Made by a program: the position numbers and the translations under genes
NCBI GenBank assembly: GCA_963969365.1
Contig: OZ017754.1
Coordinates: forward strand, 2,604,001-2,668,000
Direction of reading: 5' to 3'
Length of the DNA stretch: 64,000 bases
DNA from: Asterochloris sp. CNOR1
Lineage: Eukaryota > Chlorophyta > Trebouxiophyceae > Trebouxiales > Trebouxiaceae
Notes under the pieces: model-generated
The model's database searches: none
What the model saw: only the letters and a program-made list of their open reading frames with translations
Told to the model about the DNA's origin: nothing
Part shown: piece by piece, positions 3,701-64,000 of the stretch
How positions within the stretch are numbered: the stretch's first letter is position 1
Layout: each line of letters starts with the position of its first letter

Positions 3701-5254
3701 GGACTAGCGGCTCTGCATGCCATCTTGTAGTCAGCGCAGCCAATCGGCCACGAGTCATTGGACTCAAGCTAATGAAGATTCACAAGGCTGCCTACCCTAG
3801 GCAGTGTTTTCTCCTAACTGCAAATGTAGCTGCTCACCTCTAGATATTCCATGACTAGCCAGGCCCTTGAGCCGTTGAGGCAAGCGCCATAGAACTGCAA
3901 CGCACAGCAGAAGTACTGATGCCTCCTTGGTAATGCAGCATGATGTAGGTCGCCCCTGCACACGCAAGGCAAGACAGCAAAGCCCCCGCCTGCAAGCCGG
4001 ATGAGATTTGGGCAGCCGGTTCATGCATGAAAGCTCTGTCCCAAATGCACGCAGAAGCGCAGCTGTGACAGCAAAACACATGCATGCAACCTGCCGCTGC
4101 CAGGACAGGTGGGTGCTGCCTCCGCCACGTCCTGCCTGATGTGCAGAGTCATGATCAAGGCCAAAAGTAAGATGGCCACAAAGAGGCATGGAACAGCTGC
4201 AGCAGCTGCAGGCTGCTCACCTACAATTGCAGAGCCTTCCAGCACTGCACCCGCCTGGACGATGTTGCAGTCAAAGGTGACTCACCTGGACAATGTTGCG
4301 GTCAAAGGTGAGCGACTGCAGCAGGGCCACCTCTTTCTCGAAGGCGTGCATCTGGGAGACGTCGATGCAGCTCATCTCCTTGACTGCCACCTCTGACACG
4401 CCACCCTTGAGGGCTTTGAAGACCTGCACAGGCAGAGCTGCAAGGTCAAACCTCACTCTATGCATGGCCATACATTACAAAACCATGAAGCGGAGCATTT
4501 GTCCACGTCCACTGGCCTCAAGCAATTGACATACACCAACAAGCAGACCCCACGGCTTCGATCTGTGAAAGACGCACCAAGGCAAGGGCCCCTGCAGACA
4601 CACAAATGACACCCAGCCAGACACGTGCCCAGACACTGCTGTGCCCACCCGCCAGCAAACCTCTCTGGCCGGCCCCAGGTCACAGCACATGCCAAGCGCT
4701 GTAGCCAGCCAGCACACCCCTCACATCCATGGGGTGCCCAGCAGGATCCATCTGGCCCCTCACTATGTCCAGCAGATGCCAAGAGCACTGGTGTGAATAG
4801 GATAATGAATTCTTTGGAAGAGGACATCAATCTTGCTTGTCTTACCTATTGGTAGCCTGTGCTACGCGACTTGCTTTGCACGTAAGGCAACACAAGCAAA
4901 GCAATTCACTGGCGCCCGTACACAGCCGGCCAGCCGCCCATGCAATCACCAGCCAGCAAGCCCTGAAGACCTGCCACAGATCTTTAACAGATGCCCAGCA
5001 TCACTGGCGCCCCAAGACACCTGTCCCAAGACCTCACAGCCCGCCCGCCGCTCATGTGCGCACCAGGTGGAGATGCCTGTCAGATCCGCCAACTATCCCT
5101 GGCAGGCACGCCATGGCTGCTAGCCGTGTTACCTGTCCGAAGCCTCCAGTGCCCAGCAGCCAGCGGGACCCGTCTGGCCTGCGGCAGATCTCCAGGTCAT
5201 TTGCCTCCAGCCTGGAGCCATCCACCTTGCGTTTACGCCCAGGGACGTGAATGT
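727..5254 (-). other. Kinase-domain exons of the receptor-like kinase
   Basis: Exons in transcript order: 5254-5133, 4423-4286, 3894-3838, 3483-3420, 3181-3105, 2591-2459, 1886-1817, 1451-1354, 839-727. All boundaries are GT-AG and in phase. Visible motifs: glycine loop GTGGFGQV; VAVK with the ATP-binding Lys; helix-C Glu in FEKEV; hinge MEYLE followed by GGDL; catalytic loop HLDLKTRN; ADVGLSR at the DFG position; GTFAYTAPE; WSFGVVLW; and QRPSA near the end. Lys, Asp, Asn and the ADVG Asp are all present, so catalysis is plausible. HRD has become HLD and DFG has become DVG. The protein ends 26 residues past the RPSA motif with DQREQQDGASQEAT. The intron 2592-3104 is the longest inside the domain. 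Confidence 0.93.
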
Positions 5255-8200
5255 CTGCAGAAAAGGGTACACCAGTCAGCTTGGGCCTGGACTTGGGAAC
5301 TTTCAATTGTAAGCCTACATATGTGAACCCTATGGCCTGCATATGGGCGGCGCCAAAGCTGCGCTGGATGCCTGTACATGCAGTACGGCGACTGAACAAT
5401 TGCATCGTGCGGCCTTGCCGGAGTGCGCAGCATATTGCGCCTAGGGTATGTGGACCCCTGCACAGGCAGCGTCTTGGCCTGCAAGAGGGGCATCAGCGCA
5501 GCACACCTGTGTGACAGGCAGTGTTTGCCCTCCAGGGCAGCATGCACAAGGTAGCACCAGAATTGGAGAAGGGCCTTTCTCAGGGCTCAAGGGGTGCTGC
5601 ACATGTCATGCGTGCCTGCGCAAGGAGGCAGAGCAATGGCAGGCTGATCAAAATGAGAACAGCGCCAAAAGGGATGAGTGTGTGTGCAGATGCCTTCCAG
5701 CTCCTGCAGCCCTTCTTTGTTCTGTCAGACGAATGCATTGGCAGTGGCCTGCCCCCACGTGCAGCTCGTGCTGCCTGCAGCAGCTGTCATTGTGCCGCCT
5801 ATGAGCAGCCCTCTGCTCATGGCAACACACTGCAGCCTGGCCCAGCCTGTATGCCAGGGACTTCCAATGGCCTGGCACTCACAGGCGCTGTCGTCGCTGA
5901 ATTTGAGCTCTGAGTCAAAGGGGTTGAACAGCGCCTCAAGGGGCGACTGTGGTGAGGGCTGCCGCTGCGCACGACAGTCCTCTGAGCGCCTGTTGGCTGG
6001 TTGGCCTGTGCTGCACGTGTTGTCAAGGAAGTGCTGCTGGGCTGGCGAGTTCTTCCTCGCCGGTGCTCTGGGGGTGGCCCTGGTCAGCAGCCTCCAGAAG
6101 AAGCAGCCTGCACCAGATGAAGGCAGCAACCTGATCAGCCAGGAGTAGGGGATGAGGAACTGGTGCTGTGAGGATGGCCGTGGCCATTGGCAACTAGAGG
6201 AAGCAGTATGCAGTGTGCCCAGACAGGTTCTCAGTGTGACAAATGAGCTGTGGGGCTGCAGTTGCCGGCAACTGCTTGCAGTGCACCCTTTCAGACCTCT
6301 GAACAGCAGGAAGGACAGCCAGAAAGCTGATGCACTGATTCTGCTGACTAGCGGCAGCCAGAGATAGCTGCCTGCACCTGCTCCAGGCGGCATACAGTTG
6401 TTTCAGCAATGTCAGGCAACAACTGCAGCAAGGAAGCCATTCTGATGCAGGCAGGCAGGCAGGCAGGCAGGAGATGGGCTCAGATTAAGTCAGCTATTTG
6501 GTCATGGCATGTGGCAACAGAAATCCAGCGATACTCACCCAGCGCCAACACTGCCAGTCCTGACCCGTACGGCCACAAGCCCGCCCAGTTGCTCCCAAGC
6601 CTGAATGGCAGTGAGCGGATCCAAAGAAGAAGCAATATTGTTGCTGTGCTCTGTTGCAATAGCAAAGCAGCAGTCGTTGATGAGCGGCTGGCTGTGAAAG
6701 CCATTTGCAAGCCTGGATGGCAGTCGTTACTTCAGCCTGAGCAACTCATTGTTGTTTGGTGGACAGGACATGTGCGTGGCTAGCTCATTCTTTACATCAT
6801 GGCAGGATCAATGCCATGAGCTGCCCACCTGTGGGTGTTGGTAGCTGTTACAGCAGCTGCGGCCAGAGACTTGTACACTTGGTCCTGAATGGACTCGCCA
6901 TCTGCCCGCGCCAGGGACAGCACTGAGAAAGTGGCATTGGCACCAACTGCCTGGAAGCTGGACTGGAGAAGGTGCTGGGCTGCCTCAATTCCCTGCAGGA
7001 CACAACATGCAGGAAGCTGGTATGGAGAAGGTGCTGGGCTGCCTCAATGTCCCTACAGGACACAACATGCAGCAAGCTGGAGTGGGAAAGGTGCTGGGCT
7101 GCCTCAACAGCAGATCCTGTTGATCATTGCTGGAGGCTTGTCCAATAGCTTTGTATCCACCGACACTCCTGTCAACACAGAGCCTTGTTACAGTTCATGG
7201 TGTCTGAAGTAAAGCAGGGTCGCTGCCAACCTAGCAGCACATGTCAGCTGCATGTTGTGTCCTGCAGGAAATTGCACTCTTGAAGAGCAATTACTGGCAG
7301 TGAAGCTCCCAACTTAGAAACTGCCAAAATGTACACTGGACCACATACGGACCGCCAGGCGGATCACAAGAGAGCCTGCTACACGTCGCAAGCAGCTAGC
7401 GCCGGAAGCAATGCAAATATGCATCCATGCCTGCAGTGATGAGAGCACCCATCCTGATCAGCTGAGCTGCTGGGGACATGATTGACATTGAAAGCAGCTC
7501 TGCGGCAGACATTGAAAGCAGCTCTGCTGCAGCGTGAGCTGCCTTTCAGCCCTATGGGCGGTTCAGAGGCCAGGGGACAGTGCCAGCATCCATTGGCACT
7601 CCAGAGGGAAAGGTTGCCAGGAAGTGTTGGTGATGCATGCATCACAGAGGCCTCAGACCCTGCTGATGCCTGGCGTGCAGTCCCTCAGGTGTGCAGGGAT
7701 GCCGGGCATGCCGGACAGACCCACCTTGTCAAGAGAGACAGCTTGAGGGAAGGCGTTTGTGATGAGCATAACTCGCACTCCAGTGCCCTCCTGGTGCACC
7801 TCGGAGATGTGGGTGAACTGCTCCCCCCAGGCCATGCTGGTGCTGGCACTCCACAGCGTGCGCAGCAAGGCGTCTTCATGTTGCCGGCCCCAGGGGTCCA
7901 CGCCACTCCCCTCAATCTGCAGCACAACGTGAGAGGTGTTAGCCAGTGGCCCTAGCTAGACCTCTCCCACTCTGGCTGAGTATCCCCAACACCTCGCCGA
8001 CGGGGCGGCAAGGGCCATAGCAGGGAAGGCCACTATTTGGCTTGCATGCTGTGAGTTGTGTTGTGAGTCAAGCTGCTGGCCCCAGGGGTCATTGCCATCC
8101 GCCCAAAGCATGAGCAATGACCTAGTATAGTAGTGTTGCTCCTGATGTTGGCGCCTTAACCCTAGGCCATGGGGATGCACCTGCACCTGCAGCACACAGC

Positions 8201-12338: not shown

Positions 12339-12467
12339 AGCTGTATTTCATCACTTACACCATGACGTAGTCTTTGAGTGTCACTTACAACATCTGTGCA
12401 GGGGGACTTTGCTATCTTAGGAAGCTGTGCATATGCCAAGTCACGTGTGGGCACAGTGTTTAGTTGC

Positions 12468-16500: not shown

Positions 16501-19500
16501 AACGAACTAATGCATATCATGCCTTGAGTCGCTCTGCAGCTCCAGCTTTGCTGGTGCATGACTGCTGCATGCAGCCCAACTCTGTGAACATCTAATGAAG
16601 TAAACTCATACAGCAGCCCCTGCAGACTTCACCCCACTGCCGTTTGATGGTTACGGTGTGCCTGCAGCTTGTGCTGGTGTCATGCAGCAGATTTGTTTCA
16701 AGCCCTGCTACGTGCCAGTCCACCATCTCCAAGGTGTTTCTGTTCCATGCAGCATGCCTGGCAATGGCCTGCTGTTGAGCCTGCACCGCGCCTGCTCAGC
16801 TGTCCACTCAGCAGGTCTGTCTTGTCCTGCCGCAGGTGCTGATCTATGATTTCGAGGCCTGCCCCTGCAAGGCGGACAGTTGAGGCAGGAGTTTGTACAC
16901 CATGTTCGCTCGGCAGACTCGTCATGCCTGCTGTAGGTGCCAATCTACGACTTCAAGGTGTCCAAACGGGTGGGGTACAGACAGGTGGAGGTGCCCAGCA
17001 GTCGCGTAGTCATCATCGAGGGCATCTATGCCCTCTCATCCCGCCTCAGGTGGGCTTCAGGGGCGCAGCACACCCTATGGAAACTCCTGCTGTTTCTCTT
17101 TCTATGTACCCTGGGTGATGCGGCACCTGCTGGGCAACTTCAGAACTGACAGGCTCTCGCCGCTGGGCTGTTTCCAACCGCTGCTGCATCGCCACTGGCC
17201 TCGGGATGCATGTCCAGCCCCGGGATGCATGTCCGCAGGTCCCTACCTGCATTCTCTGTGGCCCAGGCGCCTATGGCTATGACAGAGGCAACAGTCTGCT
17301 TTTGTTGGCTTCAGCAGGCAATCTTCAGGCAGTTGCTGCATGTATTTTTCCAAAGCAAGGCAATTCGTAGTAGCCCGAATGACATGAGATTCGGGCCCAG
17401 CACTGACCAGGGGACGCCACCTCCAGCGGGTTTGGAGACCGTGAGTACCTGTAATCCTGCTGTGCAGACCTCTGGAGGACCTGCGAGTGTCCATCACAGG
17501 GGGCGTCCACTTTGACCTGGTCAAGCGAGTCCTGAGGGACATTGAGAGGTCAGGCCAGCAGCCTGCAGAGATTATTCAGCAGGTGAGAGGTGGCCGACAC
17601 CTGCTGCAGCGCACTCGTCCCTCTGTCAAGGCTGCTGTGTAGCACCACCATAGCTCATCCTACAGGCTGACATGCACAGTCCTTCTTGCCCTGGATCAGG
17701 GCCATGGTGTTGCTGTTGCCTTGCCTAGCAGCATCCAGAGACCCTGCTGTCACAGACGTTCAGACAGCCACCTGCAAGTTTCTGCTGCTGGTGCTGCAGA
17801 TATCGGACACAGTGTACCCCATGTACAAGGCCTTCATCGAGCCGGATCTAAAAACAGCCCACCTCCGCATCTACAACACCTTCAACCCCTTCGCTGGCTT
17901 CATGTGAGCTGCTGCCAATGCTTAGCCTGGTGTGTCTCCAGCAGCCTTGCTGTCTCGTGCTCCCACCAGCCCCTCTTGGCCTCATGTAAGCTGCCTGCCG
18001 CATCAAAAGATACTGTGCAGTGGGTCTCACGGCTTGCCCAGCCTGCATTGCACGCATCATGCCATAAGATGCCGCCCAGGCCTGGAGTGCTGCCTTCCCA
18101 TGGATGCCTGCTGTCCTCTCGATGGGGCCAATCCAAAGCACAAGCACTCTCCGCTTTGGCCAGTCAAGGCGGTCTGTCCAGCCTCAGTGCTTGGCTGGGC
18201 ATGACGCCCCAGCGCGTCAAACCTGCTTGTGTGGCGTGCTGCTGGTGACAGGGACACCATCAAGAACCCGCTGTGCTCATGTGCAGGAATGCAACCTACA
18301 TCCTCAAGTCAGCCAAGCCTGTGGCTGCGGAGGACATCCGTGCTGTGCTCAAGGTGAGACCCTCATTGCAGGCTTTTGACTCTGTGAAACAGCATCTGTC
18401 CAGTGGCCATGGTCATGCTAGGGAGCTTGGCCTGGGCCGCATGTCTGTGTGGACTGCCTCTGCGGCAGTGGCAGGCTGGCTCTGCATTGCTGCTGTCCAG
18501 CATGCTCAGGGATAGTCTTACTTGCCAAGCAGGGAAGTCTGCCGTGGCCCCACACCACGGAGTGCGGTCAAGCTTGAGCGCAGCTGTTGTCTGATGAAGG
18601 CAGCCTGCTGTTGGCGCAGCACAACTGAGGTGCAGAACTCCAGTGAAGTCTGCCTTCATTGGAGGGGTCAGAACCTCAGCGCCAGCCAGTGCCCCCTGTA
18701 GACAAGTGATTATGTTGAAGGCTCGTTGAGTCCTTGCTGCAGACTGATCACAGCAACTCTGACACTTACAACATCACCTGCTACTTTTGGCTCTGCAGCT
18801 CAGAAGCTCCCACATGGGCTTGTCCATCTGATGGCAGGCGCTGCACCCCTCAACACTGAAGCTGAGATTAGTGCGGCTGCAGGCAAATCACCGCATGCGC
18901 AGCGAGTCAGAAACATACGACATCTACCTGCTGCCCCCCGGCGAGGACCCTGAGACCTGCCAGTCCTGGCTGCGCATGCGGAATAGAGATGGACGATACA
19001 ATCTCATGTTTGAGGAGTGGGTCACAGACGGGCCCTTCATCATTTCGCCGCGCATCACCTTTGAGGTGAACTCAGCGCTGAGCATCACACAGCTGGCTGC
19101 TGGGGCAGTGGTGGCTCTCTGTCATGTGCAACTCATCTGCTGCCCAGCAGTTTGACCTTGTCAGCAGTGCGTCACACCAGCGCTTCCCACCCTACAATGC
19201 TGAGGACTGGGTCACAGACACGCCCTTCATCATGTCATTGCGCATCAGGTTCAAGGTGAGCTCACCTCTGCGCGGCACCACTTCTGGAGCAGGGCGTTGC
19301 TGCCAGATTTGCCCTGCTGCCTGTTGGTGTGCTTGGCCAGAAGGCAGCCTCACCGCTCATTCCTGTCTACAAGCCAGTGTGGCACAGCAATGGCTGCTGG
19401 AGCATAGAGTGCAGCTGATCAGGTGTGCATCACCTGCTGCCTGGCCTTCATCTGCATATCTGGATTCAAAGGTGGCCACTACCTGCGTCACAGTATGGAC

Positions 19501-22500
19501 TAATCTGTTGCTCCTGCTGCAATTCTATCACCAGATCCTGGGCGGCCTGTTGATGCTAGGGATGAAGCTGCATACTGTGGGCGCGGCACAAGCATGCTAA
19601 CCCCTAACCCCTAAACCCTGCCTCCCGCAGGTGAATGTGCGGATCCTGGGGGGCCTGATGGCCCTTGGGTATGAGATTGGGTCCATCCTCAAACGCACCA
19701 GCCGGGTGTGGCAGGACGACCAGCTGATGATCAAGATCGATGAGATCGACGGCATGGAGCACAAGTTTGTGCAGGTGGGCCTGGGTCCATGCAATGGACA
19801 GCTGCCCAAAAATGTGCATGAGCAAAGGGCAGCAAAAGTTTTGTACACGCTGGAGCTGGGTTTCAGCAGGTGTAGGTGCCTGCAGGTTACAAGGTGGCTC
19901 CAGGCCCCCAAGTCTGATGCCGAGAACAGCTGCTTCCGTTGCGGCCTGTAAAAGCGTCTGCCTGCACAGTGCCTACCTGTAAAAGCGTTGAGCACCTTGA
20001 CAACAGGGTCTAACAGGCTGTGCGGTCCAACAGGCTGTTCGCAATGAAAGGTTCGCCCCTTCACGCTGCAGATCCAGGGCAAAGACAGGGCGGGAGTGGC
20101 GGCCGCTGGGAGCGCATTAGGGTTGGATGGGACCTACATTGCCCGCTCATACATCGAGCAGGTGGGACAAGCACTTGTGGCTCAAACACCCTCATGGGCG
20201 TGCTGCTGTTCATGTTCTGGGGGTTTGCTAGTCTCACTCAGACTGCACACCAGTGCAGTCAACTGGCAGTCAGGCATGCACTCCCATGCCTGCTTGCACT
20301 TGAGCTTGGGCATGACTTACTCTTCCTGCTGCTGTGTGCAGCTGCAACTGCAAGTTGCCCCCGTATGGCTGCAGCCACTCTCAAGCCTGCCTGCTGGCAG
20401 TTGCACCTGGGAAGAGTGTGCGGGAAGCCCTCTGCCTGCCTCTTATAAGGTATCCCCTCCCAGCAGCCTTCAACCAGAATGCAACAAACAAACTTTACCA
20501 TACCTTTGCCTGCAGCTGCCAGCTCCTGCATAGGCCTCGTCTGCGCTGCAGAAGGCTGGCCAGTCCCGTCTGGAACGGCCACACAAGAGTCTTTGCAACT
20601 CCCAGTGTCTGTCTGCAGATGCATCTGGACAGTTCCACCGCCCCACCTCTGCCTGCACTGCTGATCCTGGTCATCAAAACCCAGGGCTGTGCCTGCAGCT
20701 GCAACTGGACAACTTGGTGACCGACTTCCAGAAGGTGACCGAGGACCTGAAGCGGCGCTTTGTGGTCAACGGGGAGCCACTGATTGAGGAGGGCATGGTG
20801 GTGGGGGGATCCCCCATGGGCAGCGGCTCCTTCAAGCGCATGACTGGATTCACCCTGCCCCAGCGCCCCACCATGGCATCGTCAGGTGAGGGGGATCAGA
20901 CGGCGAACGCTTTGTTGAACAGATGATGCCCAGTTGGGTGACATGGGCAGGTGGCGCAGTGCAGGCTGCGCCATGAGGGTTTGCAGCAGGGCATCGTGCA
21001 TTGCGCAGGGCAGTAGAGCGCATGTACATCTTTGCCTTTGAGAGCCAAGGGCTGCGGCAATTTGAAGCATATGACCAGGCTACGCCTGCCGGCGGCCTGG
21101 TATAGCCTCGTCAGGTGAGCATGTGCAGCAGTGGTGCAGGCTCCTTTCAAAGCAGTGGTCCCCCGGCAAACGGTACAGCATGGTGCTGTATAGCTTAGCT
21201 GCTGGGTGTAGCCACACAAGCCAGCAGAGTCTGCATGCCAAAGAGTCAGCTGCGGCCTGCTGAGCGCCGCCCAGAACACAGACCCACCTGTGGTGCATGT
21301 GCCGTCCCTCTGCACAGCAGCCTGGCCGCCCCTGTCTCCACATGCCTGGGCTGTTGCCGTCAACCAGTGGTCTTAAAGGTCACTTGTCCATCTATCCTTA
21401 AGGCTTCCAGATGACAACAATAATTCTGTTCGCCTCCTGTGTCTGCAGCACCTGTTGACATGGTCCCGCCGGGACCCCGCAGCACCTCAGATGACTGGAG
21501 CAACAGCGGCACAGCAGAGCCCCGCAACGGCGCCCTCTCCCACCTCATGCGCAGCTCAGAGAACGGCGCGGGCGGCGGGCTGGCCCCCCTGACGCGGGCG
21601 GCGTCCCAGCTGCCGGGCACTGACCACGGCAGCGGGCACCTCAGTGAGTCATGCGTAGACCTGTGCGGTGTCTGCCAGGCTTGAGTGCGCACTCATTGGT
21701 GTGGAGGGAGCCATCATACCACCGCATGGGGCTGTGGGATACATTTCCGGATACAGCATCGAGTCCACTGGTGATGTGACCTGAAGGCACGCTCGCTGTG
21801 AGGCCAAGGCACCCTGCTGAGCATCACAGCCCACTATCAGAGCATGGACGGTCACAACTTTGAGGAGGACCCTTCAGTTGCTGCATATGTTCCCAGCTTG
21901 GGTGGTTTGCAGTGGAGGGCCCTGCAACTGGGCCGTGGGCGTTGTGCCAAGCTGTTTGACAGGCATCCTGCCCTGCCAGCCAGCAACCAATCGTCCCTGC
22001 ATGCCATGAGCTGGGCACCATGCGGGCAGCCACTGGCAGCCGCTCCATATGTCCTGCACACTGGGGCAGGCCCTGCTTCTTCTTCTGTAGCTTCTTCAGA
22101 AGGGCACTCAAGCCCCACAGGCTGCCATGCACAGCTCCTGGCAGAGCGCGACTGGGCACACCCTGCTGGCAAGAGGCAGTGCCATGTCAAGCTGCAGGCA
22201 CCCACCTGCTGCACAAGGTCAGGCATGACCTGGTCGCCCCATGTACTCCGTATGTTGTGAACAGCGGCAACTTGTGCTGCAGGTGCTCACACCAGCAAGC
22301 AGCCGCCTCCAGCACATGGCTGGCAGTAGGCAGCCAAAGCTCCTGAGACCAGCAATGTTGAAGCCAAGGCCGAATCTGTGTCTTCTCGCAGGCGTCCACA
22401 CAGAAGGCAGGGGCAGCTACCACCTGCCGGACAGCTGCTGTGGCGTCAGCATCGTAGATCTGGTCTCTCCTGCAGGTCCCCACATGCAGCTTATGGGAAA

Positions 22501-48100: not shown

Positions 48101-51100
48101 GCCAGTCCTGTCCTGTGGCCGGCTTGGCTGTACCTAACGCACAAGATATGTGGCCACTGCCCTGAGTCGTCATAGCATGGCAGTCCTGTCCTGTGGCCGG
48201 CTTAGGCTGTACACTACCACAATTGGAATTTCATTGGCCAGCTTGGCTACCAGGAATGTCCTTGAACTGGTTGCCACCGGTATGTGAGCTCCATGCAGGC
48301 ACTGGTAGCAGATGGGACCGGGGAGTCACTAGGCCAGCAGGCTATCATGTCTTGCTGCCAGCACCTCTCCATCGTCCTTGCCTTCATGCATGTGGTGCTG
48401 GCAGATGGGCAGCAGGACGCTCACTGCAGTCAGTACACACCCAGTCCAGGCCAGCTGTCACCGGCGTGCAACTCTCTTCCTTTCATGCAGGGGGCAGCGC
48501 GGTGGGCAGCAAGAGTTGCAGCCCAGCCCCACAGCACCGATTGTGTGCAAATTTCCGTCCTTTCATGCAGGCATTGGTGGCAGGTGGGCAGTGGAAAGCC
48601 CACTGCGCGGGCTGGCCACCAGAAGATTTTGGACCAGATGGAGCTGGGCCTGTCGGTGGAGCAGATAGCCCACTTCCGAGCGTTTGTGGCCTCCCACAAC
48701 AGCAAGATCCTGCTCAGCTCGTCTGAGGCACACACAAAGGCGCTGGATGTGGTGGACGCCATCGTGGCCAACTTGGGTGAGCACTGCCTCACGAGCCTAT
48801 GCGAGGCAGTCATTATTGGTGGGTGTTGACGCCATTGCAATGTGGGTGCACTTGAGCTTGAACAGTGGCACCTTGGAGGGAAGGCCAACCATGCACGGCA
48901 GCGCTTTGTAGGCATGTGATGGCTGCTGTTGAGGCCAGCGTTGATGCTGAGCTTGCTTGACTGGCCCTTCATCACCACGCACAGGTGCGGCCCCAGCATG
49001 CTGAGGCTCTGCTGCCGTGGACGGCAGCCTCACGGAGTGGGTGCGTGACGACCTTCTGCAGCAGACAGAACTCCAGGCCGGCCTGCAGCAACAGGCATGC
49101 AACATGGAGGCTTGGCCTGCTCTGGAATGTAAGACATGCTGGTGGACATGCTCCAGGCAGCAAGCAGCACACTTCTGAAAGGGTGACATGCTGACTGCTG
49201 CAGCTCTCCCCTCCGTTGCCATGTGCCAAAAGGGAAGCTGCAGGTCAAGCAGCTGACGGGAGCCCTGTCATCTGCTGCAGGCTCCCCCTTTTTGCCTTGC
49301 CTGAAGGTGCGGAGCAAGGCAGCCAACAGGAGCCTGCCCTTTGCTGCAGGTGCCCTGTCCCCAGCGCTGGAGGCTCTGCTGTTTGAGGCGGTGGGGGGGC
49401 GCAAGCTGCCGCCAGTGATGCGCGTCTGCCTGCGGGCGGAGTGCCCCAAGCTGGGGGTGGCGCTGCACGTCGGCAGGGACTGGGCGCCGCTGGCGGCTGT
49501 GCGCACGGAGGCTGCCTTCGGGTTCCTGGAAGTGTCGCTGCAGTCCATCGAAGCCCAGCTGGGCTCAAACGGTGAGCAGGGCTGGGGCATGACGTTTTGC
49601 CTGCTCCTCTTGAACTGGCATGGTGAACTATCTGTTTACCTGCAGCAAGCGCTGTGAACATGCTTGTACTTGGCCGTTGGAGGCATGGCAGGCCATCCCT
49701 CAAGTGCTTCTGCCTGTACAAGGGATGGTCAGCTCATGGCAGGCTGACCAGAACCTGCCACACATCACAAGCGCCAGACCTGCCTCCCAAGAAGCCCTGC
49801 AGGCTGAATGCTGTGCATCATGGCAAGTCTTCTCACCTGCACAACTGACCTGCAAAGACCCACCTGCAAATGACCATGGGCAGGCCTGAGAGGCTGCTAT
49901 CAATGGCCAGCCACACTTTGCGCAGTGTCATGCTTCGGCTGCCAGGTCCAAGCCACAATGAGTTGTCCCTGTCGGTGCGCTGGACCTCACGCCTGCTCCG
50001 AGGGTGCCTGCAATAATCTAGGTACCAGGTGTGCATGACTGCAGGCAACCCAGACGCCAGCTGGCTCCCCTGCACTTGGGCAGCTTGCATGTGCAAGCCC
50101 TGCCCAAGCCATGTTCTTGTCATGCCTGCAGGTGACCTGGACCTCAGCATCCGTCGCATCAGCGCTGGAGGGACAGAGGCCCTGGGAGTGGCGCCCTCTG
50201 AGATCCTGCTGCAGAGCCCCTCAGCGCAGTGCAACCGCCTGCTGAAGGTGGCGGACCTGCAGAGCGTGTCCATCCGTGAAGAGGGGTTCGAGCCCGCAGC
50301 CGTGCAGGTACAGTCCACTGGCCAGCTTGCTCAGCCAGTCTTGCTTAGTGCTTCATGGGGGACACTGCACTGTGGTGCCAGATTGACTGGAAGCTGACAG
50401 CAAAGGAGTCACATGGTGCACTTTTAGTTGTACCTGCTCATTGAGACATCAGTCTGCTTCCTTCTGGCTGTGGTGTGCCAAACAAAACTACCCTGGGACA
50501 CTCGGGGCAGCTGCATGCCGCCTCTTCTGAACGCTGCATGGGCAGGAGCACTCTCATGCCCCTGGCATCAGGCAGCTGTACGCTGCTCTGCGCATGCTGC
50601 CCTGCAAGGAAGCCCTGTCCTACCCAATGGGTGTCAGCAGGTGCACTCTCATTACATCTTGCCTGTTTGGCATCTCATCATCAGGGGACGGGTGCTGTGT
50701 TCACTTCTCAGGACGCCCGTCAACCCCTGTTCAGCTGTCTGGCTGGCTGGCTGCAGGGGGAGGGGTCGGGGCTGGGCGTGTTCCTGTCGGCGCACATGAA
50801 TCTGAGCCATGGGCGAGTCAGGGAGGACTGGGCGCACCACCATCGCAAGTCTGTGCGGCGGATGCAGCAGGATGCGCACAAGCCAGCAGGGCAGGGGGAT
50901 GCCCTGCCCGTCAGCCCGCCTGGGCTTCATGTCGATGTGAGCCGCCAGCACGTGCAGCGCTTGATCTGTCTTTCACTCTTCAGCATGGAAGCTTGGGCCT
51001 CAGCCCATGAAGCCGCCGCGGCTTGCCATTGACTGAAGGCAATGCATCTGTGTCTCATGTGTGGGCGGTTGAGGCCCTGCCCACAGACCCACCAGGCTGG

Positions 51101-54100
51101 AGCAGCAGAGCCATTGCAGTGTTTCTGGGGCTCATCATACTTGAGACGAAACAGGCTCAGACAATACATGCATGTCTGTGATCTTGCTCAGTGTCCAGCA
51201 TGGGCGTTTGGGCTGCTGACTGCAGCAAGATGGCCGTGTCTTGCTCGCATGCTGTTCGTCCATGTGCCCTGCCCTTAACCTCAAGCATCTCTCTACTTTG
51301 CCAAGTACCTCTCCATTGCAACAAACGCAGCTCACCTTTTCTTCCCTGCTGAGCCTGTGGCTCCCACCTGCCACTGCTGGTAGCGCACTGTCATCAAGAC
51401 CAGTCAGCTGCCCAACATGCTGCACCTCTGCATTCACATCCCCCTGCCTGCATGCTGTAGGTCCAGACTGCCGGCATCGAGTGCATGTACGCCTCCAACA
51501 TCATCATTGCAGCCCTGGACCTGCATGGGCGGCTACTGCATGCCCTGAAGCAGCGCACACTGGAGCGCACCTCCTCGCGCCCGGAGACGGAGCTGATGAA
51601 GGTGCCCGGGCAGCCCGTCAACCTGGCTGAGCGCGTGCTTCACAGCTTTGCCAGGTAGGGTCAGCCTGGGGGTTGAGGGTGTGTGCAAGACCAGCTGAGG
51701 AGGGCACGGCAGGCTGAGAGCATGCTGCACAGCTCTGCCAGGCAGGGTGGGCCTGGGCATATAGGGTGTGTGCAAAACGTTATGAGGAGGGTGCGGCAGG
51801 CTGAGAGCATGCTGCGCAGCTTTGCCAGGCAGGCACAGGCTGGCCGTCTGAGTGCATAAGACCAGGCTGAGGAGGGTGCAGCAGGCTGAGAGCATGCTGC
51901 ACAGCATTGGCATGTGGCGCTCCGCCAGCACCTGGACTAGCCTGCTGGCTGTAAGCGCAGCGCCTGAGGTCGAGAGCATGGCTCTTGAGGCACGCAGGGG
52001 ACAGGGATGCACGTGAAAGTGTAACAGCCAGCACTGTATGCAGCATAGGATCGGCTGGCCATTTTCACCACAGCTTTACAGTAGTAGGGCCTTCTGCCGT
52101 ACTGTGAGCTAAGTGGTTGAGGCTCTCAGCAGCGAATAATACCATCTGACTCAGTATGGGGTTGTTTGCGGTGCAACTTTGAGTTGTTTGCAACACACTG
52201 CTAGTGCATGCTGCTGCATTTTGCACAACATACACCAACATTGTTCGTGCTGCCATTCTTGGCGTCTACTACATGCACATGCTGTGGCTCAAGGCTCAAT
52301 GCCCAATGCAGTGCAACGCTGTGGCATCTGTGGCACAATTGTAGGCGGGCCACTAGACTCTGCGGGCTGCAGCACATGTGGGGTACACTGGCCTCCGAAC
52401 TCCCAAGGTTCTGCACCAGGTAGGCTGCTGCAAAGAGCCCTGCTTGTGCTGCACCTGCAGGTACGACATGCCAGTCGACAAGCCCATCCCGATGCCGCTG
52501 CTGAACGTGGATCTGTTCAGCCCAGGTGAGCTGCTCCTCCTGGCTTCTGATGCACTGTGACTTACTCATGGATGCCCTGCCTTTGCTACGTTGCTGCACG
52601 CTGCTGTCTGAGCATGGCTAAGCCGCAGCAGCAGTTCACTGTCTTTCCTGATGCAGGTCTTGTGATCCGTGTGCCCTACATGCACACCGAGGGCTCTGGC
52701 TCTGCTGCAGCGGCGGGTGGTGTGCCAGAGCTCAGGCATAGCGATGGCAGCAAATATGAGCTGATCTGTGCCCTCACAAGGTAAGTTCAGCACCACCCAC
52801 TGCGACCCGTGTCCATGCATGGGGCCAAATGTGCTGACCTCAGCATGTGAACACTACCTGCTGTGCTCATCCCCTCCCTGCAGGTTGCATATTCACACAT
52901 CAGCCCAAGTCTACTGCTCCCCTACATGTGACAATCTGCCTGCAACTGGTGCAAGCACAATGCTTCTCAGATCCTCACACGTGGTGATGTGCCTGCAGAG
53001 CACGCATGCGCATGTTTGGGGAGGACCTGAAGCAGTTCATGCGAGGGGCTGCCAGCCAGCGCTACAGCCTGGTGACCTACCTGGACCTCTTCTGCTACCA
53101 GCCGATGGAGCACAGGTGCAGATGGGTTGCTTGTAGGGTGTTCCAGGGCAGTGGCTGCCGCAGCAGTTGCCAGGTGCTCTGTTCTGGGTGCGGCACATCG
53201 AGCACTTGCATGGAGGGATACCGCTAAGCGCTGGCTGCCCTGTAATTGTTACTGCCCATGGGTTTGAGCGAGCTCAACAGGGTTGAACCGCTTCTGCCAA
53301 CTTCATCATGGTGTGCACCTCACCACAGACAGGCTGTAGCATATAAACGGTGGCCCCTTGCTCTGTGCAGGCCTTTTCAGCGGCTCACGCCTCCCCCCTG
53401 CAGGCACCGCAGCACCAGCGACTATGCTACAGCTACACATGGTGGCCCCTTGCTTTGTACCAACTTGCTCAGCAGCTCATGCCTTTGCCCTGCAGGCATC
53501 GCAACACCAGCAACTATGCTACAGCTACAACCAGTGGTCCCTTGCTGCTGTGCAGACTTGCTCAGCAGCTCATGCCTTTGCCCTGCAGGCCCTGCAACAC
53601 CAGCGACTATGCTACAGCAACAATCGGTGGCCCCTTGCTTTGTGCAGACTTGCTCAGCAGCTCATGCCTTTGCCCTGCAGGCACCGCAACACCAGCGACT
53701 CCCTCCTGGGGCGCCTTACTAAGGGCAGGTTGCAGAGAGGGGAGTCCACAGGGCTGGCACGCAACGTTGGGCTACAGCCAGAGGCTTTGGACGACGAGAC
53801 TGAGATGGAAGCCATGGCCAAGGTCTGGGCGCATCCTGAGGACCTGCACCTCTTCCCGGTGAGGAGACGGTCGGCTGCTGCAGTCTTCCTGGTTGTTGAT
53901 GGGCTTGGGGTTTGAGTGCACACCCTGGTAGATGTCACAGAGCTTCTCCCTGGCCACTGTCAGCGCCTTTGCTGAACACCTTGCAAGCCATGATGTATGC
54001 ACACAGTGCTGCCTCACACGCAGAGGATGTTGGCAGTGGCAGCAGGAGGGTGCCAACAACAAGTTGCCTCCAAACCATGGCAGATCATGACATGTATGCT

Positions 54101-57100: not shown

Positions 57101-60100
57101 TGCTCATGTCTGCAGGCTGGCCTGTACAATGATGCTCCTGCAGGTGATACAAGGTCATCTTGACCCTGCTGATGCTGAGGCGCTGCAAAGCTGCAGACTT
57201 GCGCCATCACCACCCAGCCAACATCTGATCGTCATGTACTAGTCATGCTGAAGATCCCGGCGTGACATCGCCCATGAACACCCTGTGCTGCCCCTCTCCT
57301 GCAGGGTTTTCAAGGTACCCGGCACCCCTCTGCTGTCCCTGACAGAGCTGATGAACAGAAGTAGCAACACCCTTCTGCTGCCCATGCAGGTGGTATAAAG
57401 TCATCATAACCCTGCTGCTGCGGCGGCGCTCCAAGCTGCAGCCCCATGGCAACCTGCAGCCCCGCCCCATGGATCTGGGCGCCCACAGGCAGACAGGGCC
57501 CACGCAGATCACAGCTGTGCCAGTCGAGGTCCCCCCCACGTTCTTTGCAGCCCTGGGGGGGACGTCCGTCACAGGGCCACAGGTCTCGGTGCACCTGATC
57601 AGCCTGGCTCCCCGCTTCTACCCAGGGCATCCTGGCTATGTACCTGCTGCGCCCACCCACCTGGACGCAGAGGTGAGGGCGGTGTCTGTGTCTTCTCTAT
57701 TGATAGATCCAGGCACTTGCGCCTTCTCTGCTGGGCCTCACATGTTGCTTGCAAGCCTGCGATGCTCACACACCAGGACGCAGGGCGGGGCTTACGGCTG
57801 TGCTGCTGCGCTGTGTGCGTTGCTTGCAAGCATGAGGAGCTCACCCGCTTGGACAGACGGGAGGTGGGTGCGGTCGTGGCTTGTGAAGCATGAAAATATG
57901 CATCAGGGAGCGCAGACCGTGTGAGAACTGTGATGCTGGTGGGAGGCAGGCATCATCATCTTGTGATTGTAGCATGACACTGACCAGCTTGGCAGAGGCT
58001 CAGCCCAGCCTCCTGTTTCAGCTACATTAGGGCTGCCTGCAGTGCTGCAGCTCAGAATTGCCGTGCTGCAGCTTGGAGCTGCCATGCTGTTGAAGACTGG
58101 GCGCCAGAGTTGAAAAGGAAGCGCATGTGCTTTGCAGGGCGGCCAACTGCTGATGTTGGTGCACAGCTGTCTTGAAATGAAACGAGCAGGGACTGTCTGT
58201 GGCCTGCAGGTGGGCCAGCTGCTGATGTATGTGCGCATCAGTCGCAGCAATCGGCTGCTGCCCTTCCTCACCCAGATCATGGCCTTAACTCAGGACTGCC
58301 AATGTGAGTCTTCATCTCCTGCTGTTCATCAACTCTCTGCTCTGAGTGCCATGAGCAAGCACAATGGGTGCCTCAGGAAACCGTACAACAGTTGCAACAG
58401 TCATGCTGCCTCCTGTGGCCACAGTAAGGCTGTTCTGAGCCGTGCCTGGAACTCTCTGTCTGCTGGTCTAGGTTTGGTACCACTTCACATTTGCTGCCTG
58501 CGCTGCAGTGCTCCAGAGCAGTCCTGAAGCCAGTGGCGCAGTTGGGTGTAGTCCACCACCCCCAAAGCCTCCAGCATCCTCAGAGTTTGCAGGCTTGGAG
58601 GTAAGCTCCCCTGGATGTGCTGACTCTGGAAGACAGTCCCTGAAAGGTGGCCACAGCCTGCTTCTGCTTGCCCCTCAGCTCATCTCACTTGATGGGATGG
58701 CCACAGGCAGTGCAGCGCAGAGGCTGACCCATGCCTGCTTGGGTGCGTGAGCATGCTCAGCATGTGCAGACAGTGCACCACCATATGTCTCTGCATATGC
58801 CTGGCAGGGTGGTGGGCATCTGCATGTTTGTCAAAGAGTGACAGCCTTGACAGTGGCTGTTGCAGATCTTCACACCGTCAGACAGTGCGCCTGTCAAGGA
58901 CCTGGCTCTCTGTGGCATCGCAACCCTTCAGCCAGTGTATGAGGCAGCACCCCACAAACACATATATATATATATCATATGCCTGCAGGTGCATGCTGGG
59001 CACGGCTGAGACTGGACCTTCACATCAACTTTCAGCTGGTGCATGCGCCATCGTCCCACCAAAGACATATGCATGCCTGCAGATACATGCTGGCATGGTG
59101 GGAGTGGATCTGGCAGTGCTGATCGAGAAGCAGGAGCTCCTCAGCCTGAAGCTGCTGGACGCTGCTCTGGAGACATCTCTGGCAGCCACATCCTCCCATG
59201 CGGAGGCTGTGGTGGTTGAGCTCTCCATCGATGACATCAGCATCAGGGATCTGCAGGTGAGTCCACCTGCCAGGCCCATGGGCATGCCTTGGGCGCTCTG
59301 TGGGAATACCACTATGCACAAGCATGCGCTGAGTGTTCATCTTTGATGCTGCCTCAGTTCCCTCTTCACTCAGTGACCAGCTGACATCTGCAACCTTCTG
59401 CATTGAGCTTGGCGGCCGCCACCTCATTTCTGCAATGTAAAGCACGCAATGTTTGCCGGCCTGAGTCCTGATGCTGCCCACCTGCAGGCCCGCCCTGAGC
59501 ACTCTGTGGTGCTGCGGGCCAACACAGGGAGCAGCCTGGCTGGCGACCACGACCGCGTCTCCAGCTGCACCCTGCTGCTGCGCTACATTAAGCCTCATGA
59601 TGAATTCAGCCCGCCTGACCTGACGGTGGAGCTGGATAACCCTCAAGTCCTGCTTCTGTTCAGGTGTGTCTCCTGCTGCCCCTGCAGTCTTGCTGCAAAG
59701 GGGTGTGTGAGCAACGAGGGCTGCAATTGCAGCCATATGTTCCGTTTCTGTATTGGTTCAGCCTCTGCTACCCCTGCATGGGGCATGCTGCGCTGCAGAA
59801 GGAGGTGGTGATCAGAGGGGCCTGGGTTTGCAGCATGTGTGTCCAGCTCCTGTAAAAGCTTCGCTCGTGCTGCTCCTGTGTGGGGCATGCTGCCGCTGCA
59901 GATGAAAAGGTGTAGTCTGAGGCAGAGGTGGTCTGCAGCATGGGGGTTCCTGAGGAAGGAGGCAACGTCCCACTTGAGCTGATAAGCTCTGCCACACACA
60001 ACTGCTACTGCCCTGGCTGCCCTGAGGTTGTAAGGAGGCTGACTGCTATCCTGCTCAGAGCAGCTTCATGCAATGATCAAATTACAATGGCACAGTACCC

Positions 60101-63100
60101 ACAGCCTCATCTGCCTCTAGAAGGTGTGGTTCATTGCTGACATCAAGCAAAGTGTCAATTCAGCTGCAACACAGCAAGTGACATGACAACCTTCATCATG
60201 ATCTGTGGCTGAGCCATGCAGTTTCCAGCTTGTCGGTAGCCCCTGCTGTGCTGCAGGTTCATTGCCGACATCATGCATGGCGTGGACATCGTTACCCAGG
60301 CTCTGGCTCCTGTTCTGGCCCAGAGCCCAGCAGAGGAGGCTCCGCCTGATCAGGACGCTGCACCTGAGCCCATCATCAGCACTCCCTTCCCCATCAAGCT
60401 CTACCTCATCAATGCAGCCGTGCTGCTGCCAGCCAGCTCCAAGTGAGGCACCATCAGTGTCAGCCATCTGCTGAAACCGCCTGCCTGCCTGCGAGCATGC
60501 TGTCTCGGTGCCGCTGTCCCATCTGATGTCATCCATGCAGTCATCCTGCTGCCAGCTGGCTCCTCGTGGGGCACTGCTGGCAGGTGCCATCTTGTGTCCT
60601 GGGACTGGCCTTGCTGATGGTGGCCTGCTCCTCCAGGGGCAGACTACTTCTGCTCCCCTGTGATTCTGACTGAGCGCGCAGTCTTTTCAATGAATGGGCT
60701 TGATGGTAGATCTCTCCTTGATGATGACAGCATGGTGCAGCAGCTAGACAGTGTTTGTCCCCACAGTGCCCTAGCACTGTGACCCAGCACCGCGCCTCAG
60801 CACACACAAAAGTCTTGGGCCCCCTCTTGCAGAAGGTCAGTAACACAGCCCTGATGCTGCCTTGCAGGTCTCGCCAGGTGCTGGTGGCAGAGGTGCGCTA
60901 CTTGGTGTGTGGGCTGCCCGGCACCGCCCTGCCTGACAGGGACTTGATGGACGCCAACCTCGACAGTGTGGACAGCATGGTGGCAGACAGCCTGGACACC
61001 TGCACCATCTTTGGCGACCAGACAAGCTGCACACGTGACCAGCACAAGAGCCCCTTTGAGGGTGCAGGCAAAGGTGTGCCGCCGCAGCCTGCTCCACCTC
61101 TGATCGGGTTTCTTGGTCTCCTGTGCTCCATTCAGCTCACGAGGTGGGTGCAGGCATGCCCAGCATGGAACAATGGAGACCGTTGTGTGTGTGCCGCATG
61201 CCGATGCACCACACCTATCTTGGTCATCTAGTGTGTTAGCAGATGCACAGCTTTGCTGTGACACTTTGTTGTAGCACTTCATGGAGGCTTACATGTCCGC
61301 TGTGGTTGTCCTGTCTTGAGCTGCCTGAGCTGTCTTGATAGCTCTTTGCCTGCAAGGTCTGCCGTTGCAGCTGTCCCTGTCCATGGCTGCAGGGGGGCGT
61401 GGTCAGGCCAAGGGCAATGGCCTGAGGACAGACTCCTCTGGCGTGGCAGGCCTGGCCTCAGCTCTGGAGCAGCGCCAGCAGACGCCTAGCTTGAGGCGAT
61501 CCAGGGTGAGTCGTGACCCACGCAAGCCACAGTGCACTCAGGTTAGGAGTCCAGGCCAGAGCTGGCTGCGTCCCGTAGCTGCAGAGGCAGGACGTGCAGG
61601 GAGAACTTCTCTTGAGTCGTTTCCCAGACTGCCTGCAAGTTTTGCCACTGCTGCAGCTTGTGTCGGCTGTGTAGGCAAAACTTCCATGCGCGGCTAGAGA
61701 GGACTTGCATCCGCCTTTTCAGGTTGTTTGTTACTCCTGCAAGCCTTGAAAGGGCCTTACTACCCTTACAGCTCCCGCAGGTTGGCCTTCAGAAAAAAGC
61801 TGCCTCCGTGGCTTGAGGAAGCCGGCACCCGCCCCTTTCTTTCTCAGGCGCTCATGGGACCAGAGGGTGACAGTCTGACACATTGCTGCAGCTGAAAGCT
61901 GCAGCCGGCACCGGCATCTTTCAGCCACTGGAGCACACGAGCAGTTGTTTCACGTCAGGGTTTCTCACATGCTGTGTACTGCAGATGTACAAAATCCCAG
62001 AGGCGTTCAAGGCCGGCTTTGGGCGCCTGCGCAAGGTCACCAGACTGCCCAAAGCGCCCCAGCGCTCTCACGGGCAGCCCGGCGTCCTCACGCTGGATCC
62101 ACTCGACGCGGGGCAGGTTCCACGCCTGGCACCGGCGTCGGGAGGGCCCCCGGCGACCCCGTTTGCTGCATTGCCTGTGAGCAGGGAGGCGTCCCTGGGG
62201 CGCTCAGGGCAGGGGCGGGGGTGGGGCCTGTCGCGGGAGCGCTTCAGCATGCGATGGGGTCGGAGCCGGGGGAGCCAGCGAGCGCAGCCCACGCAGGGGC
62301 TCCCACCCTCAGCTGAGCCTGCCAGCCACTCCGCAGGCGGGGCCCCCAGCCCGGGGGAGCTGCGGCGGGGCAGCGCCCCTGCAGAAATACAGGACCTGGA
62401 GGGCCCGCGGGTCTCACGCCTGTCACGCCTGAGCGAGACCGGCGGCTTTGCCCCGCAGCAGCCTGCTGCACGGCCGCATCCGCAGACAGGTGCGCTGATG
62501 AAGACGTCTCAGTACAGGGGACCAGGGGGTGCTCCTGCCAGATGGGTGACCTTCTTGATGCACCCCTCTGCTGCAGATAGGGGACATGTGGTCATGCTGC
62601 TGTTGGTGCGATGGCCCTGCGCGCTGCATGCAGTCCCCTGCTGCAAAGCTCTGCCTTATGGGGCTTCGCCGCTGCATAGGCATCAAGATCAGCTGCAGCG
62701 TCCTGGAGTGCACTGGGGAAGCTGCTTGGTTCTGCTCATTCAATATTGGCCTGAAAGCATGCTTGCCTGACTGCACAGAGCCCAGCAAGGCACTTCTTTT
62801 GGTGCTCATGTATTTCACAAATGCTGCAACAGAGGCGCTCGGGGGAATGCCCGTCCAGTGGTGGCCTGGCTGTCATTCTCAAATGCTTTCAGAGGCGATC
62901 TGAGTTAGGTCATAGCTGATCTGCTGTCTGTGTCCTCTGCAGTACATGAGCATTGTGACGTGCCAGTGCCTGCCTTGGCCATCATGGCTGACGACCTGGT
63001 GTGCCAGAGAGCAAGGCTGGTGCCGCTGTCTAAGGAGCATGACGTCGGGCATGGCGTCCCGCAGAGCATCCTCAACTTTGCCTGGCCCTCCCTACATTGG

Positions 63101-64000
63101 GGGCTGGCAGAGAGGTGGGGCTGACACCTGCAACTCGCCTGACCCTCGCTGCAATGGTGGCCTGCAGAAGTGTGTGTTGGGGTGCCTCCACAAGCTTGCC
63201 TGGCCCCTTTTGCACTGCGGCCTGCCAGAGAGGTGGGCCACAGGGGCCTAGCAGAGAGGTGGGCCTAACAGTTGCAACTCGCCTGACCCTCGCTGCAGTG
63301 GTGGCCTGCACAGGTGCGCGTCAGGGGGCATCCACAAGCTTGCCTGGCCCTTGTTGCACTGCGGCCTGCCAGAGAGGTGGGCCACAGGGGCCTAGCAAAG
63401 AGGTGGGGCTGACACTTGCAACTCGCCTGACCCTCACTGCAATGGTGGCCTGCACACATGTGTGTCAGGGCGCCTCCACAAGCTTGCCTGGCCCCTGTTG
63501 CACTGAGGCGCCTGCCAGAGAGGTGGCCAACAACAGGGGTCAACATAGGACTATCCTTGACTCACCCCAACCACGCTTGGCACTGGGGACTTGCAGGGCA
63601 GCAAGGTCAGTGTCCACAACTCTGCAAGGCACCTGCTGCACTGAAGTCCTTCCTGAGAGGTGGCCCCCAGCCTCCATGATGTTGACTGACTTTGGTTACG
63701 TTAGGGCTGGCAGAGAGTTTTCTTACATCAGGGAGCTGAGTCACCACGCCGGTCTCTGCAAAAGTCACCGTCTTGCTGCCTGTGCTTGACGTGGTGCTCT
63801 GCCCCATCAGGTGAGGTCACCATGTCATTGCTGCTGAGCATGTCACCAAACTACCCTGCTGAGGTGTGACTCTCAAGGTGTAGCACTGGTTCTGCAAGCC
63901 TGCCCCAAAAGGCTGGTCACCACTACATGCCTGCAGGACTCACCTGCCCTTGCCAAGCAAAGTAAGCCAGGTGCTCGAACCAGTCGCACTGCTTACAGTA
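42195..64000 (+). CDS. VPS13-family (chorein) bridge-like lipid-transfer protein, cut by the window edge
   Basis: A giant plus-strand gene with more than 30 exons; about 2,030 residues are encoded before the window ends. VPS13 proteins form a long hydrophobic groove that carries bulk phospholipids between membranes at contact sites. The evidence is the domain order. An N-terminal chorein domain comes first, with ..VAQHVLDAAGLPICSVAALS and VEELEVSLPTWSRPL. The VPS13 stretch NEYNQYAPYWTVRPQ joins VPLQDIAVRRATRLKYADLY across an intron. Then comes KILDQMELGLSVEQIAHFRA, and later PPDLTVELDNPQVLLLFRFI followed by ADIMHGVD. Nearly all exons join in phase; the gap 54950-55691 is unsettled. Large low-complexity inserts lie in exons 44834-45556 and 61985-62489. 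A hydrophobic segment precedes the chorein domain, unusual for VPS13. The 3' end (VAB, ATG_C, PH parts) is outside the window. Introns are full of exon-edge copies. Confidence 0.9.
44222..44620. repeat. Three copies of a VPS13 exon donor edge
   Basis: The exon end (QLRQLELMPHG, 44228-44260) recurs as QQRQLELVSRS near 44420 and as QLRQLKLCLAW near 44590. The two extra copies are intronic. Confidence 0.8.
46115..46425. repeat. Tandem copies of a VPS13 exon acceptor edge
   Basis: ACTGCAGAGTCCACCAACGG at 46259 and ACTGCAGAGCCCACAAACGG at 46351 begin two copies about 92 bp apart. Less complete copies lie near 46115 and 46213. The exon is the last copy (46358 on). Confidence 0.88.
46690..47010. 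repeat. About 172-bp tandem duplication inside a VPS13 intron
   Basis: Two diverged units, each running from GCCAGAGACTGTGCA through CAACAAG.CACAG/ATACAG to ATGCTGAAGCTGAG, start near 46702 and 46873. They hold no convincing exon. Confidence 0.8.
48048..48203. repeat. 78-bp tandem duplication
   Basis: GGCTGTACCTAATGCACAAG at 48048 and GGCTGTACCTAACGCACAAG at 48126 start two 78-bp copies that differ at only a few bases, in the VPS13 intron 47389-48570. Confidence 0.93.
48290..48600. repeat. Four copies of a VPS13 exon acceptor edge
   Basis: Copies around 48293, 48386, 48486 and 48569 each have CATGCAGGCA- or CATGCATGTG-like starts followed by GGTGGCAGATGGG-like sequence. Spacing is 83-100 bp. 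The last one is the start of exon 48571-48776. Confidence 0.8.
49255..49375. repeat. Copies of a VPS13 exon acceptor edge
   Basis: GCTGCAGGCTCCCCCTTTTT at about 49275 and GCTGCAGGTGCCCTGTCCCC at 49343 each follow GGGAGCCCTGT / GGAGCCTGCCCT. The second opens exon 49350-49571. Confidence 0.65.
51630..51915. repeat. Four copies of a VPS13 exon donor edge
   Basis: The exon end GTGCTTCACAGCTTTGCCAG (to 51654) recurs as CATGCTGCACAGCTCTGCCAG near 51720 and CATGCTGCGCAGCTTTGCCAG near 51807, with a fragment near 51893. GAGGAGGG.GC.GCAGGCTGAGAG separates the copies. Confidence 0.9.
53350..53710. repeat. Four-copy 92-bp array ending in a VPS13 exon
   Basis: Units start at about 53351, 53440, 53532 and 53626. 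Each has GGTGGCCCCTTGCT, a TTGCTCAGCAGCTCATGCC-like tract, a CCCTGCAG acceptor and CACCAGCGACT. Only the last is followed by exon 53681-53858; the first three continue into a shared TATGCTACAGC tract. Confidence 0.95.
57130..57450. repeat. Shadow of a VPS13 exon start
   Basis: Bases 57136-57200 (CAGGTGATACAAGGTCATCT..) resemble the start of exon 57390-57672 (CAGGTGGTATAAAGTCATCA..), including the following CTG-rich stretch. The offset is about 250 bp. Confidence 0.75.
58134..58245. repeat. Shadow of a VPS13 exon start
   Basis: TTTGCAGGGCGGCCAACTGC at 58132 and CCTGCAGGTGGGCCAGCTGC at 58203 begin two similar stretches; the second is exon 58210-58303. Confidence 0.8.
58985..59115. repeat. Shadow of a VPS13 exon start
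   Basis: CTGCAGGTGCATGCTGGGCA at 58984 repeats CTGCAGATACATGCTGGCAT at 59077, the acceptor and first codons of exon 59083-59256. A short TA tract lies just upstream at about 58962-58975. Confidence 0.75.
60118..60290. repeat. Shadow of a VPS13 exon start
   Basis: GTTCATTGCTGACATCA at about 60129 repeats GTTCATTGCCGACATCA at 60257, the start of exon 60257-60442. A similar copy of that exon's end (CCTGCTGCCAGCTGGCTCC) lies near 60545. Confidence 0.75.
63075..63680. repeat. Array of copies of a VPS13 exon donor edge
   Basis: The end of exon 62943-63114 plus following intron (TTTGCCTGGCCC..CAGAGAGGTGGG..GCAACTCGCCTGACCCTCGC) is repeated with copies starting near 63195, 63335 and 63480, and a decayed copy near 63615. 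Units are roughly 110-145 bp. Confidence 0.93.

Follow-up and report, generated by a model that had tools for sequence, protein, structure and literature searches.

Introns in a 64,000-nucleotide stretch of the green alga Asterochloris sp. CNOR1 (the window; positions 2604001-2668000 of contig OZ017754.1, within a 56.4-Mb, 21-contig genome) carry diverged copies of the exon edges beside them. These copies, here called exon shadows, are real and common. They are probably the decayed remains of ordinary short tandem duplications that crossed a splice junction, lengthened the intron and left the protein unchanged.

The window was compared with 18 systematic 10-kb stretches of the same genome and then six more. 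The window and the first 18 stretches form the first data set (244 kb), and all stretches together form the full set (304 kb). Gene models were the predictions of a self-training gene finder, obtained independently of the original prediction and without existing annotation. The finder converged on a donor CAG/GTGAG and a very strict acceptor TGCAG/G (the slash marks the junction), and it predicted 354 introns in the first data set, 89 of them in the window, and 458 in the full set. Across the whole sample the acceptor consensus is unusually strict, with T-G-C-A-G at 94-99% per position, and the polypyrimidine tract is weak. Depending on the test, introns shorter than 120 or 60 bases and exon edges shorter than 25 bases were left out of the counts.

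In the junction test, each query consisted of exon bases only, so that shared splice motifs added nothing, and random intron stretches supplied the null. Above the 99.9% level of this null, 51 of the 665 junctions in the first data set matched their own adjacent intron against 0.67 expected (18 of 167 in the window and 33 of 498 in the sample); with the intron reverse-complemented, 0 of 665 did so. A second pipeline, in which the alignment had to reach the junction, found 69 copies in the 244 kb with 1.9 expected by chance; under a slightly looser limit, 88 copies were found in 67 of the 458 introns of the full set. Acceptors share TGCAG almost without exception, and chance similarity from such motifs or from skewed composition, or assembly artefacts, might be suspected. 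Nevertheless, the exon-only excess, the empty reverse complement and the few expected false positives leave this explanation with next to no probability. Furthermore, the copies are diverged, with identities of 66-89% (5th-95th percentile) and a best of 96%, which disfavours an assembly artefact.

Ten places in the window had been named originally, and a clear copy was found at eight of them. Nine splice sites among these coordinates coincide with exon boundaries in the independent gene models; 4254 is itself the start of a copy, beside donor 4286, and not a splice site. At 63114, the finder's last window exon ends at this donor, and the intron leaves the predicted path. Copy scores were ranked against 1000 random intron stretches, a pool that includes most of the tested introns, so that each p is an upper bound. 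The values were at most 0.001 at 19065 (40 of 47 bases identical) and 63114, 0.003 at 22573, 0.005 at 44260 (35 of 37 identical), 46358 and 51654, 0.006 at 53681, and 0.007 at 4254 (24 of 26 identical). The other two places were marginal: 16937 (at most 0.009), where the best match lay at 16712 and not at the eye-visible copy at 16835, and 48571 (at most 0.029).

The window holds 30 copies at 22 junctions in 21 of its 89 introns. By our count they were distributed over four gene blocks rather than five genes, and the maximum found beside one junction was three copies, not the four described before. In the 24 other stretches, 46 of 369 introns carried a copy (36 of 265 in one set, 10 of 104 in the other). 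The description of the density as exceptional is thus only partly right: copies are about twofold denser in the window than elsewhere, but the phenomenon is genome-wide.

Self-comparison of the full set in 1600-base tiles (E<=1e-4) returned 137 direct local pairs against 3 inverted ones. Their periods ranged from 71 to 432 bases (5th-95th percentile; the largest in these tiles was 723) at a median identity of 76%, and the 102 pairs at E<=1e-5 had a period mode of 90-140. Forty of the 137 lay inside one intron, 38 crossed an acceptor and 23 crossed a donor; 11 covered an exon edge without its site, 9 touched two exons, 2 were within one exon, and 14 were of other kinds. A local copy was found for about 14% of the 50-base queries centred on acceptors and 8% of those centred on donors (null 0.6%), for 4-14% in intron bodies and for 3% (11 of 321) in intergenic sequence. 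In exon interiors the share was 4-6% at 60-120 bases from the junction and was higher again farther in, close to the opposite junction. Local duplication is therefore a general process here, and its exon-internal cases are rare, as selection would give. Introner-type intron gain would place similar introns at many unrelated loci; the one array that was queried against the whole genome matched only itself.

Short tandem duplications, mostly of about 70-250 bases, would thus arise locally. Selection would presumably eliminate those wholly in exons. A duplication inside an intron or across one border would leave the mRNA intact if the exon-continuous copy kept a working site, and the other copy would become intron, drift and lengthen it. 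Because selection preserves one of the exon copies, an old duplication would remain visible longest as an exon-edge shadow. Introns hosting a duplication had a median length of 573 bases versus 309 for duplication-free introns, in part because long introns offer more room, and copies cover at least 9989 of the 191620 predicted intron bases. The proposal that short tandem duplication across splice junctions lengthens introns and leaves decoy sites is therefore supported. Its portrayal as a continuing process is not, as few pairs are young and the best, at locus L013, reaches 96% identity. As to the molecular cause, we infer either slippage during replication or the repair of breaks through fill-in and end joining.

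It had also been noticed that the most downstream acceptor copy and the most upstream donor copy are the ones used. The rule holds, but it reveals no mechanism and is forced by geometry and by selection for an unchanged mRNA. If an intron tail and an exon head were duplicated in tandem, only the last acceptor would join the whole exon to the message; after a donor-crossing duplication, only the first donor would. Because these choices alone keep the mRNA unchanged, every surviving junction-crossing duplication should obey the rule. In the gene models, the copy contiguous with the exon is the used copy, and protein support covers 16937 and 19065 only. It comes from a uridine kinase plus CYTH protein that matches the PDB chain named inorganic pyrophosphatase TTM1 (7z66; E 2e-163). 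Across the used acceptor 16937, the alignment with this chain has no gap. Compared with TTM1, which we take to be an Arabidopsis protein, the shadow segment that follows 19065 is inserted sequence, and the alignment resumes directly after it. The predicted segment at 19151-19255, which holds the shadow of the TTM1-like exon end, is 105 bp long, stop-free and of phase 0-0. Used as a cassette exon, it might add 35 residues, and it is possibly the single exception to an absence of coding use among shadows.

Shadows evolve nearly neutrally. Mismatches between shadow and used exon amounted to 0.208, 0.191 and 0.257 at the three codon positions, and the ratio of third to first and second positions was 1.29 (bootstrap 1.14-1.47). 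Such a weak bias is what would be seen with a drifting shadow and a used exon whose changes fall mainly on third positions. The distance from used copy to shadow was a multiple of 3 in 24 of 69 cases in the first data set and 26 of 88 in the full set, which is about the chance rate and indicates that the copies are not kept as coding sequence. With the codon-position bias weak and the frame not kept, the copies do not look like tandem exon duplications with alternative use, in which the copied exon would have its own acceptor and donor, an open frame and coding constraint. The splice dinucleotide was intact in 20 of 38 acceptor shadows and 18 of 31 donor shadows, near the share of about 0.6 expected from an identity of about 0.79 per site, and shadow sites are presumably little used.

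Selection or gene conversion might instead keep shadow cores as alternative or decoy splice sites. In the full set, 46 of 88 shadow sites retain the dinucleotide; flanks between shadows are homologous in only 5 of 24 pairs while the cores match; and four in-register copies of an acceptor plus about 40 exon bases stand at L017 1787-2145 with spacers that align poorly. We nevertheless consider such maintenance improbable. The codon bias is weak and the frame is at its chance rate, the dinucleotide identity of shadows (0.68-0.77) is slightly lower than the identity in the exon part (0.79), and the likeness between shadow cores is in part a product of their selection for the analysis, which required each to resemble the exon.

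Identity is about 0.8 within the exon part and drops to 0.3-0.5 across the intron flank, and 19 of 69 intron flanks were homologous at the 99% null. A neutral simulation matched on exon identity led us to expect 20 to 25 of 69, depending on indel rate (summed by hand). Exon-limited copying, a candidate raised by the drop at the junction, was set aside after gapped flank tests and neutral simulations had shown mostly an effect of decay, with a residue remaining. Copying from mRNA or cDNA was likewise rejected, as shadow flanks matched the exon on the other side in 0 of the 65 testable cases among the 69. The exon-limited look of shadows comes largely from selection, which holds one exon copy in place, whereas the intron flanks on both sides of the comparison decay and acquire indels. 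The exon shadow is thus largely a matter of visibility, and the neutral simulation reproduces most of it, not all.

Two groups of results weigh against derivation of the shadows from ordinary, neutrally decaying tandem duplications. The first concerns the flanks. Without identity matching, the simulation predicts 46-54% homologous flanks versus the 28% observed, and the neutral simulation also predicts younger copies than were found. At an exon identity of at least 0.86 and a flank of at least 60 bases, 8 of 20 flanks were homologous against 70-87% simulated under two settings, although the simulated set is younger. At a score of at least 23, a flank of at least 50 and a distance of at most 300, the figures were 5 of 19 against roughly 40-70%; some cases in both counts belong to multi-copy arrays with a short true flank. 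High-identity copies whose flanks have no detectable homology occur at 44214/44403, in L019 intron 1863 and in window intron 56813. The tandem model predicts long homologous flanks in these cases, of which the 44214/44403 pair has 95% identity over 37 bases at a distance of 189. Flank scores for the copies at 44403 and 44584 are 13.5 and 7.5, whereas the 99% null stands at 16. The 44214/44403/44584 set and the four-copy array in L017 stand out most clearly as odd.

The second group concerns position, and it bears on whether duplication is aimed at splice junctions or exon edges, for example through breaks linked to transcription or splicing, or through microhomology between splice motifs that contain CAG. 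For the comparison of crossing with internal pairs, 101 of the 137 pairs were entered (40 internal, 61 crossing). Left out were 8 pairs that fell in unassigned sequence, including the 63099 array, as well as 11 edge pairs and 17 others, and per-intron tests took only the best or shortest-period pair of each intron. The best pair crossed a junction in 54 of 71 host introns, against 32.1 expected from geometry (P 3e-9) or 37.7 at a 1.5-fold visibility of crossing pairs (P 9e-6). Among well-formed tandem units, 19 of 25 were crossing versus 7.5 (geometry) or 9.6 (1.5-fold visibility), and 5 of 6 versus 1.9 or 2.4 among those with at least 80% identity. However, the excess weakens if missed exons have made the predicted introns too long: with intron length limited to 450 bases P is 0.01, and with a limit of 350 it is 0.2. 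A 2.5-fold visibility gives P 0.008, and the simulated visibility is about 1.3-1.7 (1.29-1.42, or up to about 1.7 from detection rates by class). Both site types are affected (33 acceptors, 21 donors), a duplication signal runs through intron bodies at about 4-14% of positions, and the picture would be no different if exons had a higher duplication rate that selection conceals. In simulations with uniform placement, 43-46% of pairs crossed a junction, compared with 59 of the 96 observed, and per-pair geometry expects 50.8 of 96 with the period as unit or 27.6 of 96 with the aligned length. These expectations disagree with one another, which makes the junction excess tentative. In L020-L025, whose 104 introns lay outside the finder's training, 9 crossing and 3 internal pairs were found. 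The junction excess is thus significant but dependent on assumed intron lengths, and can be called suggestive. We hold it unlikely, though far from negligible, that duplication is aimed at junctions. The bolder claim that short duplications in this lineage favour exon-intron borders, so that splicing or transcription directs where introns grow and exon edges are hot spots of lengthening, appears somewhat more doubtful.

The original prediction had further suggested that the process could create new introns. Reviews of intron gain list tandem genomic duplication among its mechanisms, and duplication of AGGT-containing exon segments is established elsewhere (Rogers model and Hellsten et al. 2011, as given in the review PMC3443670). 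It shares with the present case a tandem duplication involving splice-like sequence. Gapped matches between donor and acceptor regions in any register were in excess, with 14 versus 4.7 at score 14 and 3 versus 0.45 at score 18, and a candidate is the 127-base L011 intron at 7575-7701 (minus strand), whose donor and acceptor regions are alike near register with a score of 19. However, ungapped in-register matches of at least 11 were found in 0 of 322 introns versus 1.45 expected. Near-register gapped matches crossing the junction numbered 2 versus 0.72 expected, and one of them corresponds to a spurious 3-base exon in L017; another strong gapped match, in L005, pairs an exon end with the start of the next exon. 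The in-register signature of AGGT duplication, in which the exon end resembles the intron end and the intron start resembles the beginning of the next exon, therefore shows no excess here. The L011 intron is the single candidate, and it is very improbable that new introns are being made by this route.

The duplications catalogued in the window illustrate these forms. On the minus strand, the intron that follows exon 4286-4423 of the kinase gene holds at 4255-4280 a copy of the end of this exon, next to donor 4286, and a tandem array of period 59-60 at 6944-7107 crosses the acceptor of exon 6829-6992 (88%, E 2e-30; also found by TRF). All others are on the plus strand. The copy of the exon end and donor 19065 lies at 19201-19278 (78% over 78 bases) and overlaps the predicted in-frame segment 19151-19255. 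Two acceptor-side copies with periods of 97 and 181 lie upstream of used acceptor 22573 (22388-22626; E 5e-9 each), and two copies of the exon end near donor 44260 lie at 44403-44439 and 44584-44610, the first of which is the 35-of-37 match. Further acceptor-side cases are the array of period 92 at used acceptor 46358 (46115-46414; 70%, E 2e-30), another of period 92 at used acceptor 53681 (53342-53700; 85%, E 4e-79) and a copy at distance 246 for exon 57390 (57130-57441; 81%, E 2e-12). Donor-crossing arrays have a period of 87 at used donor 51654 (51625-51912; 78%, E 2e-45) and of 144 at used donor 63114 (63099-63532; 88%, E 1e-96). Intron-internal duplications lie at 46709-47007, away from the junction (period 164, 79%), and at 48048-48212 (period 78, 93%), the latter with the 8 bases GGCTGTAC at its joints as read by eye.

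In the 53342-53700 array, the three shadow acceptors have an intact AG and site scores of 9.7, 10.4 and 10.4 versus 10.4 for the used site. The 10-base filler ATGCTACAGC occurs three times in this array (53424, 53516 and 53609) and is the exact reverse complement of the 10 bases at the array start, 53333-53342, as if the joint had been formed by a fold-back template switch. A short CCCTAA-like run resembling telomere repeat was seen by eye at 19595-19620, just before the acceptor of exon 19631. At L012 6198-6987, a 401-base tandem duplication of 80% identity touches two predicted exons near several other exon-scale repeats.

The window has about 58% GC and is gene-dense by the predictions. Five of its six protein pieces have Pfam family matches: a protein kinase, the uridine kinase plus CYTH protein, an acetyl-CoA transporter, a cytidylyltransferase-like domain (E 1e-6) and a Ras-family GTPase. 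The gene finder appears to merge neighbouring genes across 33005-63114, and shadows misled it at least twice, at 19151-19255 and with the 3-base exon in L017.

Related events are known. An earlier study of duplicated intron and exon segments inside genes reportedly found them frequent in eukaryotes and stressed novel introns; the common outcome here is intron lengthening at the border. In the potato RdRp gene, as described by Ma, Lan and Niu (2016; PMC4974935), a tandem duplication across an intron-exon border copied the acceptor and exon start, and an 83-bp tandem duplication also lies inside an intron. The junction-crossing duplication resembles those described here, but in potato a new intron arose, its donor activated in the exon upstream, whereas in Asterochloris the extra copy appears simply to have been added to a longer intron, in dozens of cases. 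According to PMC8355091, no other kind of short (<100 bp) insertion is as common in the human genome as small tandem duplications, which are ascribed to double-strand-break fill-in and end joining. They are likewise short, direct and tandem; however, the periods here are longer (mode 90-140, up to several hundred), and the same cause is conjectural for Asterochloris. A literature search, with subscription papers mostly outside its reach, did not find exon-edge shadows at this density. To the known examples, the present analysis adds the number of cases, the lengthening of introns as the outcome and a reason why exon edges stay visible.

Exon shadows carry decoy sites and exon-like codons, which is a warning for gene finders. 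They form a dense record of intron lengthening in which every shadow sets a drifting copy beside an exon copy that is held fixed, and intron growth, decay of decoy sites and neutral rates can be read from one genome. A junction preference, if true on real annotation, would link splicing or transcription to local duplication.

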